A stretch of 58,141 nucleotides of DNA from Candidatus Methanomethylophilaceae archaeon (GTDB lineage Archaea; Thermoplasmatota; Thermoplasmata; Methanomassiliicoccales; Methanomethylophilaceae). The position numbers and the translations under genes are program-made. Where the stretch lies: the NCBI GenBank assembly GCA_944321505.1, contig CALULN010000016.1:1-58141 (forward strand), in the 5' to 3' direction. Each line of letters opens with the position of its first letter. Position 1 is the stretch's first letter. Positions 37,629 through 44,138 of the stretch are shown here, piece by piece. Under the pieces are notes generated by a model. That model made no database searches. It worked only from the letters and a program-made list of their open reading frames with translations, and was not told the DNA's origin.

Positions 37629-37704
37629 TGGTGCTCATGCCGGGATTCGAACCCGGGTGTCAGCCTCGAAAGGGCTGAATGATTGGCCGCTACACTACAT
37701 GAGC
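37629..37704 (-). tRNA. tRNA-Glu (anticodon TTC)
   Basis: GCTCATG pairs with CATGAGC; A and encoded CCA follow. The anticodon stem CAGCC/GGCTG closes loop CTTTCGA, giving TTC. T-arm CCGGGTTCGAATCCCGG is complete. The A/T-rich AATATATTAAAG at about 37727-37738 is its TATA box. Confidence 0.95.
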
Positions 37705-37753: not shown

Positions 37754-38866
37754 TCATACTCTGCGGGGATCGTAGACCTTCCTGCGGTACTCGGCGCTCT
37801 CCGACACGATGCGCGACACGGTCTTCGGGGTCACGAGCCTCACCCTCGGCAACCCCTTCGGGTACTTCTCGAGGAAGCGGTCCATGAGGTTCCTGTCGGC
37901 GCACGCGTGGGTCTGCAGGTACTCTCTGCTCCAGTTGCGCACCATGGAGAAGACGGACTCGATCCCGCCGTTGTAGAACTCGTTGGCCAGGACGGCCACG
38001 GTTATGGGGCTGTCCCCCAGCACCGCCACGTTGCTGCCGCGGACGGCGTACTCATCCCCGTTGTAGGATATGGCCAGGCCGGAGCTGTCCCTGACGAGGT
38101 CCAGGGCCTGGTAGTCCGAGTTCCCGGTGCCGATGGCCACGGTGTCGTCCATGCCGATGGCGTTCTTGCGGATGATCTCCAGCAGCGCGTAGGCCTTCTC
38201 GCTGGCGGACATCGCGGGCACATGCCTGAGGTCGTCTGCGAAGCCCATCCCCGGCACGGTCTCCAGCAGCATCCCGTCGACGGTGTCCACCAGCTTGGAG
38301 TCCTCCGGGGTCAGGTAGCGGCTGTCGGTGACGGAGTACAGCTCGTCGGACAGCCTCAGTTTGGTGATGGCGTCTGCCATCTCCCTCAGCGCCTTCGCGT
38401 CCTTCCTGTCCACCTGCACTTTGTCGAAGGAGAGGGCGCAGCAGGTGACGGACGCCAGGGGTAGGCCGGTGGCCTCCGCCAGCGCCAGCACCTCGTGCTC
38501 GTAGCAATCCGTCGCCATGAAAGAGGGCAGCTGGCTCCACAGATAGTCCACCGCTTCGGCGGCGCCGTCCATCAGCTTCACGTTCTCTCCGGAGAAGCGG
38601 TACGCGTCCTCGTCGGTGAGCCCCCCGGCGCGGAGGAACGGAACGACCGCCCGGGCTACGCTGCCGATGCCGTCCTCTCTCGAGAGGGAGTAGGTGGTCA
38701 CGGTCTCGTAGCGGCAGAGCGCGTCGTAGAGCCTCCCGCCGTCGCGGATGTAGCGCTCGCACAGGCCGCGGGTCACGTTGGTCCTGGTGACGAATCCGGT
38801 GTTGCAGCAGAGGAGCTGCTTGTCGGGCGACAGGCCCAGCTCGGCCATGTGGTCGTACTCAGGCAT
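37754..38866 (-). CDS. HAD-superfamily archaeal protein (COG4030/EhaR-like)
   Basis: 370 aa. It resembles the archaeal HAD-like group annotated as COG4030 or energy-converting hydrogenase subunit R, from memory. The HAD layout is loose: LCCNTGFVT near the start, MATDCYEHEVLALAEATGLP, and VAIGTGNSDYQALDLVRDSS as the motif IV-like region, but the usual DxDx(T/V) nucleophile is not obvious. Its role is unknown. ATG 38866 follows GGGGGAGAGAG and overlaps the upstream formyltransferase stop by 8 bp, so the two are coupled. Confidence 0.65.
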   Translation of the reverse strand: MPEYDHMAELGLSPDKQLLCCNTGFVTRTNVTRGLCERYIRDGGRLYDALCRYETVTTYSLSREDGIGSVARAVVPFLRAGGLTDEDAYRFSGENVKLMDGAAEAVDYLWSQLPSFMATDCYEHEVLALAEATGLPLASVTCCALSFDKVQVDRKDAKALREMADAITKLRLSDELYSVTDSRYLTPEDSKLVDTVDGMLLETVPGMGFADDLRHVPAMSASEKAYALLEIIRKNAIGMDDTVAIGTGNSDYQALDLVRDSSGLAISYNGDEYAVRGSNVAVLGDSPITVAVLANEFYNGGIESVFSMVRNWSREYLQTHACADRNLMDRFLEKYPKGLPRVRLVTPKTVSRIVSESAEYRRKVYDPRRV

Positions 38867-39689
38867 CTCTCTCCCCCACCGCGGCATCGACCTCGGCGGA
38901 GAGGTCGAAGGCGGTGTCCAGCGCCTTCCCGTCCACGTACAGCCGCTTGTCCCTGATCTCCACCCTGCCCTCGGCGAACTTGCGGATGGTCTCGACTATC
39001 AGGGGGAGCTCCCTCTTCGCCCCGTCCTCTCTGATCATCCTGAACAGCGGCTCGTCGGCGCCTTCGTCGCGGATGATGTCCTCCAGGCTCTTCGAGCGGA
39101 GCTTCTCCCCCATGGACTCCCAGAGGGCGTCGTAGTCCCCTCCGCGGATGGGGAACCCGCAGTAGGTCAGCGGGGCCCCCCTGTCCCATTCCGGAGTGCA
39201 CAGGTGCAGCATCGCCCCCTGCCTGTCCGCGCCCTCGCGGATCAGCTGCCAGATGACCTCCTGCCACGTCCCCTTCGGGCCGTCGGGGAGCGCCGGGTGG
39301 AGGTTCAGCATGTCGTACTCCCTGCAGGTCTCATCATCCATCCACAGCATGTACCCAGCCAGGATCCCCAGGTCGGCGCCGAAGCCGCGGGTGCGCTCCC
39401 TCAGAACCTTGCCGTACTCGTCCCTCCAGGCCTCCTGGTCCCTGTCCCACAGGTCTGGGCGGAAGCTCTTCCAGGACTCCGTGACCAGCGGTATCCCGTA
39501 CCCCCGGACCATGTCGAAGAACATCTCCCTCTGGTCCCTGCGGGGGTTGGGCTCCTCGGTGTTGTCCCAGTTGCAGAACACGAAGGAGACCTCCGCGTCC
39601 AGTCCCCTGTCTATCTCGTCCATGACCGCCTTCAGCAGGTTCCTGGATCCAGACCCCCTGCCGGTGGAGAACCATCCCAGCCTCAGCAT
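38859..39689 (-). CDS. PurN-like formyltransferase
   Basis: 276 aa, longer than PurN (about 200) by a C-terminal extension. The formyltransferase core shows WFSTGRGSGSRNLL, LGILAGYMLW, the catalytic Asn-His pair in MLNLHPALPDGPKGTW and the Asp in TPEWDRGAPLTYCG. PurN uses 10-formyl-THF to formylate GAR; whether this protein does so, or serves another formyl or methanopterin-linked reaction, is not clear. The start at ATG 39689 is 43 bp after the HAD-archease stop. The neighbours are not purine genes. Confidence 0.75.
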   Translation of the reverse strand: MLRLGWFSTGRGSGSRNLLKAVMDEIDRGLDAEVSFVFCNWDNTEEPNPRRDQREMFFDMVRGYGIPLVTESWKSFRPDLWDRDQEAWRDEYGKVLRERTRGFGADLGILAGYMLWMDDETCREYDMLNLHPALPDGPKGTWQEVIWQLIREGADRQGAMLHLCTPEWDRGAPLTYCGFPIRGGDYDALWESMGEKLRSKSLEDIIRDEGADEPLFRMIREDGAKRELPLIVETIRKFAEGRVEIRDKRLYVDGKALDTAFDLSAEVDAAVGERDA

Positions 39690-39732
39690 CCTAGCACCGC
39701 ATCCCAATCCGCGTCCGTGTATTAGTAACAGG

Positions 39733-40827
39733 TCACATGTCGAAGACCGCGGTGACCTCCGGAGGGTCCTCGGATACCGTCATCATGTGGTATGTGACCG
39801 CCTTCACCTCGCCTTTGGCGTGATGCCTCCTCGGGTCGAGGGGCTCTCCGTCGCCTTCGCCGATGACGGTATTGCCGTCGAACCTGACCCTGAACCTGCA
39901 GAACGCGAAGGACTCCGCATCCATGACGAAGAGCACCTCCGAGAGGAAGGCGTAGAGGCGCTCCACAGGGTCCTCTCCCCCGGCGACGATGTACCTGGTC
40001 TCTCTGGCCTCCACCCTGTCCGCATCCACCGTCTGGTCCGACAGGGCGTAAGCGGCGTCGGCGAAGCACATCTCCAATGTGTCCGCGGAGCAGGACACCA
40101 TGGCGTCCGCCGTGTGCTCCAGCTGCGTATACCGGTGCACGTGGGTGTATTGTCCCATCACGTCCATCACGTCTCCGGCGTGCGGCAGCGTCAGCATCCC
40201 CGGGCAGGCCGCCTGCCATCCGTCTTCGTCTACGGATCCTGACAGGACGCCGATGAAAGGGGCCCCGGAGTCGCGGGCGCACATCCAGTCCGTGAGGTTG
40301 TCCCCTATGTACAGGATCTCGCAGGGCTCCACCCCCAGTTCGCCGGCGAAGTCCTCCATGGCCGCCGGCGAGGGCTTGGAGCGGTCGTAGTCGGAGAAGT
40401 CCCTCCCCACCACGGCGTCCATTTTCTCATACGCTCCGAAGCGCCTCAGGGCGGTCTCGCCGTACTCGTGCCCTCCTCTGGTGAGCAGCCCCACCTTCAG
40501 CCCCATCGCCTTCAGGGCGTCCAGGCACTCCAGGGATCCCGGGAACGGCTCCGCCATGTCCACGTACTGCGTCTCGTAGAATGTGAAGCGGCGGTCGATC
40601 TCATCGAAGATCCCCTCCTCCTCGGCGGACCTGCCGTGTGCCCGCAGCCACTCGGATATCGGGGCCCTGCGGCGCTTGGCGGGAGGGTCCGGGCCGAACA
40701 CCTCGTCGGCAGGGATGCCGTGCTCCTCCAGGACCGCGAGGTCGGCGTTGTCCAGGCCGGCGTAGTCCACATGGGTGCGGAGGAATGTGCCGTCCAGGTC
40801 GAACCCCACGGCTCTGACTGGTCTCAT
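39733..40827 (-). CDS. HAD hydrolase fused to archease
   Basis: 364 aa in one frame. Residues 1-225 are a HAD phosphatase: GFDLDGTF (nucleophile Asp), LLTRGG, KPSPAAMEDF and YIGDNLTDW are HAD motifs I-IV with a helical cap between I and II. Residues 232-364 are archease: LEHTADAMVSCSADTLEMCF, PVERLYAFLSEVLF, VKAVTYHMMTV and the terminal VFDM, with the metal-binding Asp residues kept. Archease activates the RNA ligase RtcB, which joins 3'-phosphate and 5'-hydroxyl ends in tRNA splicing; rtcB is not in the window. GGAGGGGGC precedes ATG 40827. It diverges from tetR. Confidence 0.9.
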   Translation of the reverse strand: MRPVRAVGFDLDGTFLRTHVDYAGLDNADLAVLEEHGIPADEVFGPDPPAKRRRAPISEWLRAHGRSAEEEGIFDEIDRRFTFYETQYVDMAEPFPGSLECLDALKAMGLKVGLLTRGGHEYGETALRRFGAYEKMDAVVGRDFSDYDRSKPSPAAMEDFAGELGVEPCEILYIGDNLTDWMCARDSGAPFIGVLSGSVDEDGWQAACPGMLTLPHAGDVMDVMGQYTHVHRYTQLEHTADAMVSCSADTLEMCFADAAYALSDQTVDADRVEARETRYIVAGGEDPVERLYAFLSEVLFVMDAESFAFCRFRVRFDGNTVIGEGDGEPLDPRRHHAKGEVKAVTYHMMTVSEDPPEVTAVFDM

Positions 40828-40894: not shown

Positions 40895-40924
40895 TGAATC
40901 AGATTCATTGAATATAATTCAATG
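40895..40924. promoter_or_regulatory. Two overlapping palindromes in the tetR/HAD-archease divergent promoter
   Basis: TGAATC-A-GATTCA (40895-40907) and CATTGAAT-ATA-ATTCAATG (40906-40924) are both perfect. The second contains a TATA-like AATATAATT, and TTTAAGTA at 40880-40887 is another TATA candidate. They are placed 29-58 bp before tetR, as an autoregulatory TetR operator would be. Confidence 0.65.
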
Positions 40925-40952: not shown

Positions 40953-41555
40953 ATGGGGAGCAGGCAGGAGGCCGCCGTCGAGACGCGGAGGAAGCTGTTG
41001 GAGTCCGCCAAGAGGCTGGTGTGCGAGAAGGGGCTGGCGAACACGTCGGTGGAGGAGATCACTGGATCATGCGGCGTCTCCTGCGGGACGTTCTACACCT
41101 ACTTCAAACGCAAGGAGGACATAGTGTACGCGATCAGCAAGGACATGTTCGAGTCCATACTCGAGAACGCGCAGTCCGCGGACGGCCCTCTCATGGAGAG
41201 GCTGACGTTCTTCATGTCCAGGTTCTCCGGCTACATAGAGGCCGGAGGCCTTAAGCTGTGCCAGGAGTGGGTGAGGAACACCGTCGACCCCGATCTGGTG
41301 GACGATCCGTACAGCAGGGGCAAGCTGTCCTTGGATATAGGGTCCCTGCGCCAGGTGCTGGAGGAGGGTGTCCGCAGAGGGGAGCTCTCGGCCGATGCCC
41401 CGGTGGAGCGTCTGGCGCTCATGCTGACGGATGTCCTCTACGGGCAGATGCTCTGCTGGTGCATGTCCGGCGGAGCATACAGCTTCGGGGAGCGCACAGA
41501 GGAGTTCTGCCGCTCGCATCTGGGTATGATCATGGCCCCCTTCATTGAGGGGTGA
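40953..41555 (+). CDS. TetR-family transcriptional regulator
   Basis: 200 aa. The N-terminal helix-turn-helix is clear: RRKLLESAKRLVCEKGLANT, SVEEITGSCGVSCGTFYTYF, KRKEDIVYAI (about residues 12-61). The C-terminal ligand domain has Cys and Trp residues (LCQEWVRNT, MLCWCMSGG) but no recognisable ligand signature. GGAGGGAGC precedes ATG 40953 and two palindromes lie upstream. It is the first gene of an operon with two aldo/keto reductases, so it probably represses them in response to a carbonyl compound or other effector. Confidence 0.9.
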   Translation: MGSRQEAAVETRRKLLESAKRLVCEKGLANTSVEEITGSCGVSCGTFYTYFKRKEDIVYAISKDMFESILENAQSADGPLMERLTFFMSRFSGYIEAGGLKLCQEWVRNTVDPDLVDDPYSRGKLSLDIGSLRQVLEEGVRRGELSADAPVERLALMLTDVLYGQMLCWCMSGGAYSFGERTEEFCRSHLGMIMAPFIEG

Positions 41556-41560
41556 TTCGC

Positions 41561-42421
41561 ATGGATACGTCATTCGTTCTCAACGATGGGGTGGAGATCC
41601 CCGCCATCGGATTCGGCACCTACACGATACCCGCGGACGGAAGCGCGTACAGGGCCGTGCGCGAGGCCCTGGACGCAGGGTACCGCCACATAGACACCGC
41701 GGCGGCGTACTTCAACGAGCGCGAGGTGGGGGAGGCGGTGAGGGACAGCGGTATCCCCAGGGAGGAGGTGTTCATCACTACCAAGCTCTGGCTGCAGGAC
41801 TACGGCCGCGAGGCCGCAAGGGACGGCTTGGATGCCTGCCTCCGCAGGCTCGGGACCGGGTACATCGACCTGTTCCTGATCCACCAGCCCTACGGAGACG
41901 TCCCCGGGGCCTGGAAGGCGTTGGAGGATGCCAAGCGCGACGGGCTGGTCCGCTCCATCGGCGTCAGCAACATGACGCCGGCCATCTGGAACCGGTTCGT
42001 GCCGGGGTTCGACACGTCGCCCTCCGTCAACCAGGTGGAGTTCAATCCGTATTGCCAGCAGCGCATCCTCGCAGAGGAGATGAGGGGATACGGCACTCGC
42101 ATCGAGGCATGGGCGCCGCTGGCACGGGCCCGCGGCGGCCTGCTGGAGGACCCGACGGTGCTGGGCATCGCGGAGGCCGCCGGCAGGACCCCGGCGCAGG
42201 TGGTGCTGGCGTACGAGGTCGGGGAAGGGGCGGTGGTCCTTCCCCGTTCCGTCAACGGTGCCAGGATGAGGGAGAACCTCGGTTTCCGCGACGTCCGGCT
42301 GAGCGATGCCGACAGGGCGGCCCTGCGCTCCCTGGACAGGGGTCGCGGGACCCACGATCCCGACGCGCCGGGTGTGGCCGAGTTCCTGCTGAACGCGTTC
42401 GACGTCCACGGGGGGCAGTGA
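41561..42421 (+). CDS. Aldo/keto reductase (first of pair)
   Basis: 286 aa NAD(P)H-dependent aldo/keto reductase. The catalytic tetrad is visible: Asp and Tyr in HIDTAAAYFNE, Lys in ITTKLWLQDYG and His in LFLIHQPYGD. The cofactor-side loop VLPRSVNGARMRENLGF is also present. It reduces aldehydes or ketones; substrate unknown. ATG 41561 follows GGGGTGA, five bases after the tetR stop. The next AKR begins one base after its stop. Confidence 0.92.
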   Translation: MDTSFVLNDGVEIPAIGFGTYTIPADGSAYRAVREALDAGYRHIDTAAAYFNEREVGEAVRDSGIPREEVFITTKLWLQDYGREAARDGLDACLRRLGTGYIDLFLIHQPYGDVPGAWKALEDAKRDGLVRSIGVSNMTPAIWNRFVPGFDTSPSVNQVEFNPYCQQRILAEEMRGYGTRIEAWAPLARARGGLLEDPTVLGIAEAAGRTPAQVVLAYEVGEGAVVLPRSVNGARMRENLGFRDVRLSDADRAALRSLDRGRGTHDPDAPGVAEFLLNAFDVHGGQ

Positions 42422-42422
42422 C

Positions 42423-43268
42423 ATGGAGTACAGGGTGCTGTCCAACGGAGTCAGGATGCCCATGATGGGGTTCGGGGTGTTCCAGATCCCGGACCATGCC
42501 GCCGCCAGGAAGGCGACCGCCGAAGCCCTGGCCGCAGGGTACAGGCTGATAGACACCGCCCAGGCCTACGGCAACGAGGCGGCGGTGGGGGAGGCCGTGC
42601 GGGAGAGCGGCATCCAGAAGGATGAGGTCATGGTGACCACCAAGCTGTGGATAAGCGACTTCTCCTACGACGGGGCCATCGCCGCGGCGGAGCGCTCCAT
42701 GAAGCGCCTGGGCACCGACCGCATCGACCTGCTGCTGCTCCATCAGCCCATGGGGGACTACATCGGTGCCTGGCGGGGACTGGAGAGGATGTACCGGGAC
42801 GGGAGGCTGGGAGCCATCGGCATGGCCAACTGCTACCCGCACGTGCTGGCCGATCTGTGCGAGACCTTCGAGATCCCGCCCATGGTCAACCAGGTGGAGA
42901 TGCATCCGTTCTTCCAGCAGGAGCTGAACCTCCGCACCATGGAGTCCTACGGCGTCGTCCCCGAGGCATGGGGGCCGTTCAACGAGGGGAGACACGGTCT
43001 GTTCACGGACCCGGTGCTGACGTCCATCGGCGAGGCCCACGGCAAGACCGCTGCCCAGACAGCGCTCCGCTGGAACATCCAGCGGGGAGTCGTCGTCATC
43101 CCCAAATCGGTCCACGGGGACAGAATCAGGGAGAACATCGACGTCTTCGACTTCCGGCTCTCGGAGGGGGAGATGGAGAGGATCGCCGCGATGGACACCG
43201 GCCGCAGCGAGATCGTCGACCATTTCGACCCGGAGTGGATCAGGTTCCTCCACAGCTATCGCACCTGA
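42423..43268 (+). CDS. Aldo/keto reductase (second of pair)
   Basis: 281 aa paralogue of the preceding gene with an intact tetrad (LIDTAQAYGNE, VTTKLWISDF, LLLHQPMGDY) and the cofactor loop VIPKSVHGDRIRENI. The two are clearly related but diverged, so duplication is not recent. It ends the TetR-controlled operon; a GC hairpin follows. Confidence 0.92.
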   Translation: MEYRVLSNGVRMPMMGFGVFQIPDHAAARKATAEALAAGYRLIDTAQAYGNEAAVGEAVRESGIQKDEVMVTTKLWISDFSYDGAIAAAERSMKRLGTDRIDLLLLHQPMGDYIGAWRGLERMYRDGRLGAIGMANCYPHVLADLCETFEIPPMVNQVEMHPFFQQELNLRTMESYGVVPEAWGPFNEGRHGLFTDPVLTSIGEAHGKTAAQTALRWNIQRGVVVIPKSVHGDRIRENIDVFDFRLSEGEMERIAAMDTGRSEIVDHFDPEWIRFLHSYRT

Positions 43269-43286: not shown

Positions 43287-43331
43287 TCCCCTCTTACACG
43301 TATTAATATGCGCGACCGTGTTCCCAGGGGC

Positions 43332-44138
43332 ATGCGCATAACGATCGTAGGATGCGGCTCCATCGGTCAGAAGCTGGCCGCCGCCGCGGACGCCATGGCG
43401 GAGGTCAAGAGGATCTACCTCCTGGATATCGTGCCCGAGCACGCCGAGAAGCTGGCGGAGAGCCTGGACAAGGCGATAGTGGTGCAGTCGGTGGAGGACG
43501 AGCTCTACCACTGCGACCTGGTCATAGAGGCGGCCTCCCAGGATGCCGCCAAGCAGGTGGCCATGATGACCGTCTCCAGAGGCGTGGACCTCATGATAAT
43601 GTCCGTGGGGGCGCTGGTGGACGACGAGTACCGCACCGAGCTGTTCGACAAGGCCAAGTCCACCGGGGCCAACATCTACATCCCCTCCGGCGCCATCGCG
43701 GGCCTGGACGGGCTCAGGGCCTCCCACGTCGACGAGCTGGAGTCCGTGGAGCTCATCACCACCAAGGGCCCCCGCTCCCTGTCCGGCGTGAAGTACGTGG
43801 AGGAGAAAGGCATCGACGTGTCCAAGATCACGGAGCCCACGGTCATCTACAACGGGTCCGCCAGGGAGGCGGTGGAGGACTTCCCCCGCAACGTGAACGT
43901 GGCGGCCACCGTCAGCATCCTGGGGGTGGGCTTCGACAGGACGAAGGTCACCATCATCGTGGACCCGGCCGCCAAGAGCAACTCCCACGAGCTGAGGATC
44001 AAGGGGGCCTTCGGCGAGATGAACTGCCACACGTACAACGTCCCGTCCCCGGACAACCCCAAGACGTCCTACCTGGCGTCCCTGTCCGCCATCTCGGCGC
44101 TGAAGAGGATCATCAGGAAGGAGTGGCTGGGGATCTGA
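43332..44138 (+). CDS. nadX: L-aspartate dehydrogenase
   Basis: 268 aa. NadX oxidises aspartate to iminoaspartate, the first step of NAD synthesis in many archaea. The Rossmann N-terminus ITIVGCGSIGQKLA, IEAASQDAAKQVAMM, IYIPSGAIAGLDGLRA, TTKGPRSL and FPRNVNVAATVSILGVGFDR identify it; the last stretch separates it from DapB. ATG 43332 is about 28 bp after TATTAATA (43301-43308), so it is probably leaderless; ATG 43308 is too close to that box. It overlaps the M24 peptidase by one base. Confidence 0.93.
   Translation: MRITIVGCGSIGQKLAAAADAMAEVKRIYLLDIVPEHAEKLAESLDKAIVVQSVEDELYHCDLVIEAASQDAAKQVAMMTVSRGVDLMIMSVGALVDDEYRTELFDKAKSTGANIYIPSGAIAGLDGLRASHVDELESVELITTKGPRSLSGVKYVEEKGIDVSKITEPTVIYNGSAREAVEDFPRNVNVAATVSILGVGFDRTKVTIIVDPAAKSNSHELRIKGAFGEMNCHTYNVPSPDNPKTSYLASLSAISALKRIIRKEWLGI

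Follow-up and report, generated by a model that had tools for sequence, protein, structure and literature searches.

The window, the whole stretch of 58,141 nucleotides that was analysed, encodes a fusion of a HAD phosphatase with archease, the activator of RtcB. The fusion is confirmed as real, maintained and narrowly distributed: a single frame carries both domains in two species, the halves differ in origin, the functional residues are intact in both halves, and both halves are under purifying selection. It is a novel combination of two known domain families, and not a new kind of system. We consider it probable that a captured HAD metabolite phosphatase was joined in frame to the genome's sole archease, giving a protein with an RtcB-activating half and a half that hydrolyses a small metabolite. 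The gene and its parts are as follows.

39733..40827, minus strand: HAD-archease fusion gene, a single frame of 364 amino acids, identified by Pfam and by the same fusion in a second genome, G117
40153..40827, minus strand: HAD phosphatase domain with C1 cap (residues 1-225), delimited by PF00702/PF13419, motifs, AlphaFold2 and Foldseek
40138..40152, minus strand: linker QYTHV (residues 226-230), from codon comparison with four unfused congeners, in an AlphaFold2 block with pLDDT 88-96
39736..40137, minus strand: archease domain (residues 231-364), from PF01951 (115 bits) and conservation

The open reading frame starts with an ATG at 40827 and ends with a stop at 39733, with 364 uninterrupted codons. 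An alternative in-frame ATG at 40908 would give a protein of 391 amino acids, but the start at 40827 is preferred because similarity to the G117 protein begins there and a GGAGG just upstream precedes it. Pfam matches are PF00702 with 75.9 bits (residues 4-185), HAD_2 with 72.2 bits (residues 9-194) and Archease (PF01951) at residues 233-363, which exceeds its cut-off of 25 bits and covers positions 1-135 of the 136 in the profile. AlphaFold2, with 66 window and locus sequences as the input alignment, predicts two confident domains (mean pLDDT 96.3, pTM 0.87): first a HAD core whose helical cap falls between motifs I and II, then an archease fold. Archease was matched once in this genome (G000), and the fusion is therefore its only copy. 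The earlier note had described both domains in one 364-residue frame, with all four HAD motifs and the archease metal-binding residues present; the open reading frame, the Pfam matches and the G117 counterpart bear out the former, and motif and conservation comparison the latter.

G117 represents a second species of the genus, with a genome that is 99% complete, and its fusion has the identical architecture without stop or frameshift. The two proteins share 76% identity over 364 residues (73% in the HAD half, 82% in the archease half). The dN/dS between them is about 0.24 for the HAD half and about 0.17 for the archease half, with 0.11-0.25 for the other genes compared, and by this codon-level measure both halves are under purifying selection. 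Since G000 is a draft assembly of 31 contigs, a sequencing or assembly error might have merged the frames of two adjacent genes, but the independent occurrence of the same uninterrupted architecture at 76% identity, and dN/dS values well under 1 across both domains, reduce the probability of such an error to a negligible level. Confinement to one assembly, which the earlier note had named as a sign against its reading, is thus not what we find.

All four other sampled genomes of the genus (G113-G116) encode a plain archease starting MRYE...HTAD. In both fused species the position of the ancestral start Met, residue 231, is occupied by His (CAC codon), and archease therefore has no start of its own there. 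Separate translation of archease from an internal start was also considered, as G000 has M221 and M224 with GGAG upstream. Such a start is unlikely, because G117 lacks an ATG at the matching place and both species have His where the ancestral Met stood.

The HAD motifs (DxDGT, T/S, K and GDxxxD) are present as D10/D12, T116, K151 and D176/D180, and these residues are 99-100% conserved in 70 relatives. In the AlphaFold2 model, helices 22-86 form a C1 cap between motifs I and II. The best HAD profile matches are phosphoglycolate-phosphatase-type families, all under their equivalog cut-offs: TIGR01449 (PGP_bact) scores 65.7 bits where 180 is needed to call a phosphoglycolate phosphatase, and PpaX (PRK13288) scores 39.7 bits where 218 is needed to call an inorganic pyrophosphatase. 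Structurally, the HAD half comes closest to 2HSZ and further C1-capped metabolite phosphatases (Foldseek). PNKP, a polynucleotide phosphatase, belongs to the uncapped C0 HADs (PMC8069645); no PNKP-family match to the fusion was found in Pfam or NCBIfam, and the modelled C1 cap sets the HAD half apart from the C0 type. Capped HADs usually act on small metabolites and PNKP-type macromolecule phosphatases are uncapped, with some exceptions, and some capped HADs act on proteins (PMC8069645). Because of this general division, the HAD half is predicted most likely to hydrolyse a small phosphorylated metabolite.

In Pyrococcus horikoshii, full activation of RtcB depends on archease residues D12, D141, the C-terminal I142, H9 and K117 (PMC3973293). 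Their equivalents in the fusion are D241, D363, M364, H238 and K342, all of which are kept, with the C-terminal carboxylate of M364 free. In the human complex the archease tip lies inside the RTCB active site, and D51, D178 and the I179 carboxylate hold a third Mn2+ on the gamma-phosphate (PMC10944509). The best structural matches of the archease half are human archease alone and in complex with RTCB (Foldseek; rmsd 1.3 Å over 140 columns with 8BTX). Because the HAD domain sits at the N-terminus, the metal-binding carboxylate stays free, and only an N-terminal fusion leaves it so. The rtcB gene, which the earlier note had proposed to locate, lies at G000:C4:46432-47736; the fusion is on contig C16, and the two genes are unlinked. 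With the activation residues and the free carboxylate kept, the archease half is predicted to be able to activate the unlinked RtcB, and most likely does so normally. In two other genomes, RtcB gives two separate profile matches (1-60 and 49-426) with about 1.3 kb between them in one 958-residue frame, an intein-like arrangement.

G019:C4:428574-431285: split-RtcB frame
G021:C26:48059-50770: split-RtcB frame

The surroundings of the fusion comprise the following genes.

37629..37704, minus strand: tRNA-Glu(TTC), at the same locus also in the unfused G113-G116
37754..38887, minus strand: conserved protein of 377 amino acids, a conserved neighbour of archease
38859..39707, minus strand: PurN-like formyltransferase gene, 26 bp downstream of the fusion, a conserved archease neighbour in the family
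40953..41555, plus strand: TetR-family regulator, located between the fusion and the nadX-like gene; G117 lacks it in this interval
43308..44138, plus strand: nadX-like gene, a conserved divergent neighbour that lies immediately upstream of archease (relatives) or of the fusion (G117)

We take the gene at 43308..44138, recognised by eye, to encode an aspartate-dehydrogenase/nadX-type protein. The order nadX-like gene, archease, PurN-like gene, 377-residue protein and tRNA-Glu is common to the unfused congeners and, largely, to other genera of the family. The PurN side was compared without G117, where the fusion lies near a contig end on its downstream side. Because this order is common to unfused relatives, the genes adjoining the fusion are the normal neighbours of archease, and by gene order the fusion sits at archease's ancestral locus. 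The neighbourhood is thus not the unusual one that had been supposed, and profiles do not confirm the adjacent HAD gene that had been proposed at 37754-38887, the 377-residue protein having no match in Pfam or NCBIfam. Across the family, this protein accompanies archease and the PurN-like gene. The interval 40953-43268 (plus strand) holds the TetR gene and two aldo/keto-reductase-like genes between the fusion and the nadX-like gene; these are not in G117, and represent either an insertion here or a loss there. Outside the order, at L216 (G455:C32), an unfused archease has a nadX-like gene as its neighbour; just downstream starts a different HAD-like gene.

Phylogenetic trees show that the HAD and archease halves do not share a history. 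The fused archeases group within their own genus (99/96). The two fused HADs form a clade (100/99), to which a standalone HAD of G090 attaches (99/95); the larger clade around them (98/95) otherwise holds standalone HADs of another genus, g10. A proline at position 46 is common to the fused HADs and the G090 protein, and the other g10 proteins are gapped there. The host genus also keeps two standalone HADs, from which the fused HADs branch apart. Throughout the order, this HAD lineage is standalone and unlinked to archease. A pre-existing HAD/archease gene pair was considered as the source of the fusion and rejected, because both genes lie far apart in complete relatives (the single-contig genomes G073, G076, G078, G031, G034, G035, G072 and G135). 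Since the HAD and archease trees differ and the archease locus is ancestral, the HAD gene entered between the nadX-like gene and archease. We propose that, in the common ancestor of the two species, within one Methanomethylophilaceae-type genus, a standalone C1-capped HAD gene, acquired by transfer or present as an old paralogue, would have been placed directly upstream of the single archease gene and then joined to it in frame.

The long stem of the fused archeases carries 0.81 changes per column, against 0.24 for RtcB on the comparable branch, and the tips beyond it are of ordinary length. Family-conserved archease positions changed in both fused species (248, 253 and 257) lie outside the known catalytic tip set. 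The long stem could reflect co-adaptation to the new domain, relaxed constraint, or a shift in archease function.

The fusion is present in two of the six genomes of the genus (G000 and G117), and 134 of the 147 genomes of the order, all of which were searched, have an archease. The earlier note had called for a search for archeases with N-terminal HAD domains; among the archeases whose frames were inspected, in the order and in further archaeal samples, no HAD-archease fusion was found beyond these two species. The longest-frame candidates elsewhere in the order are ordinary archeases that follow non-homologous open sequence. Long open frames upstream of archease in many relatives, those at L010, L044/L122, L121, L123 and L096 among them, were mostly rejected as fusions because the upstream sequence has no HAD similarity; archease mostly has its ordinary start there. 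The Arg/Glu-rich N-terminal extension in G151 (L213) looks like low-complexity sequence and is not called a domain. The survey covered archaeal samples. A phylum-wide sample gave archease in 353 of its 390 genomes, with frame lengths taken from the best-scoring matches listed, so that weaker-scoring lineages fall outside this inspection. Archease is nearly always a small stand-alone protein: in a Thermoproteota sample of 138 archeases (around G485, a Desulfurococcales genome), open frames reach at most 236 residues. In the sample around G481, an Alkanophaga genome, 2 of 142 archeases have frames longer than 273 residues (502 in G570 and 488 in G580); these matches, at G570:C9:802090-802521 and G580:C1:2146437-2146874, may lie in high-GC open frames or in fusions. 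One further fusion was found in G154, a distant genome of the same phylum, outside the order.

L214:262-1281 (G154:C24), minus strand: adenylate kinase-archease fusion, 340 amino acids, with PF00406 and ADK_lid N-terminal to archease

It is the sole PF00406 adenylate kinase match and the sole archease match in that genome. Our literature search found no description of a HAD-archease or adenylate kinase-archease fusion; most subscription literature lay outside it.

Several readings of the tether must be weighed. It has been suggested that the HAD domain strips 5'- or 3'-phosphates from RNA and thereby licenses or blocks ligation. The phosphatase is indeed physically tethered to the RtcB activator, and RtcB chemistry depends on end phosphates (PMC3973293). 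However, the fold is C1-capped, with phosphoglycolate-phosphatase-like relatives, whereas PNKP is a C0 HAD (PMC8069645); bound archease covers the RNA site and excludes RNA (PMC10944509); and the close relatives are standalone HADs across the order. We therefore regard such a role as very improbable. Of the earlier interpretation, the fusion and its intact catalytic and activating residues stand, and the preparation of a 5'-hydroxyl or removal of a 3'-phosphate finds no support; the grouping of the HAD half with metabolite phosphatases, which the note had itself held to count against it, is largely what the profiles and structures give.

It is somewhat less far-fetched, although still doubtful, that the HAD, through its tether, clears one of the products of the RtcB-archease cycle and drives activation forward in this way. 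The proposed products are the pyrophosphate left by guanylylation, the GMP left by ligation, or AMP in reactions that use ATP; the earlier note had likewise raised the recycling of a guanylylation by-product. RtcB guanylylation releases pyrophosphate, the human post-activation complex showed a single phosphate instead of pyrophosphate (PMC10944509), and ligation releases GMP (PMC3973293). The weak PpaX match and the adenylate kinase-archease fusion in G154, which points to nucleotide handling near archease, are in line with this reading. On the other hand, the PpaX score is far under its cut-off, G000 and G117 each encode a dedicated inorganic pyrophosphatase, and the close standalone HAD relatives are unlinked to archease. 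The fusion may also be accidental and neutral, the halves working independently after gene capture and loss of a stop codon, which we consider rather unlikely. Its restriction to two species, the insertion of the HAD on the promoter side of archease and the short linker fit this reading, which is largely compatible with our preferred explanation. Nevertheless, the fusion has persisted in two species whose proteins show 24% residue difference and neither of which retains the ancestral archease start codon, and archease evolved rapidly on the branch on which the fusion originated.

We thus favour capture of a metabolite phosphatase by the sole archease. The archease half would insert its metal-binding tip into the active site of the unlinked RtcB during guanylylation, and the HAD half would hydrolyse a small phosphorylated metabolite by the usual Asp-phosphoenzyme route. 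We infer activity for both halves and a small substrate for the HAD; what the linkage brings would be co-expression, or at most local clean-up, and not the processing of RNA ends. We speculate, with little confidence, that the phosphatase, through its tether, takes part in the RtcB activation cycle, clearing a phosphate by-product or sensing a phosphometabolite. If so, RNA ligation would be coupled to metabolite or nucleotide state, and the G154 fusion would follow the same logic as a second, independent example. Natural archease fusions are a direct clue to enzymes that may profit from adjoining the RtcB activation complex, and provide ready-made constructs for asking whether product removal or metabolite state limits RtcB guanylylation. 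Even if neutral, the fusion clearly exemplifies the capture of a gene in front of a conserved single-copy one, with the function-critical C-terminus preserved.

Compared with known systems, the HAD half shares the C1 cap and the four motifs with phosphoglycolate phosphatase-type HADs (TIGR01449; PDB 2HSZ, 2NYV), from which it differs in scoring under the equivalog cut-off and in being fused to archease. Its direct sisters are standalone HADs of the same archaeal family (genus g10 and G090:C71), which are about 50-59% identical but, unlike the fused HADs, are not near archease. With ordinary archeases (PF01951; P. horikoshii 4N2P, human 8BTX/8ODO/8ODP) the fusion shares the full-length domain, the RtcB-contacting tip residues and the terminal carboxylate; it differs in the N-terminal enzyme domain of 225 residues, the missing ancestral start Met and the long stem branch. 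As in the rtcB-archease operon (PMC3973293), archease is the partner of RtcB, but the two genes lie on separate contigs here, and what archease is joined to is a phosphatase. The G154 protein likewise combines an N-terminal nucleotide/phosphate enzyme with a C-terminal archease, as sole copy of both, although its enzyme domain is unrelated and the event, outside the order, is independent. This separate fusion hints that archease repeatedly gains nucleotide/phosphate enzymes.
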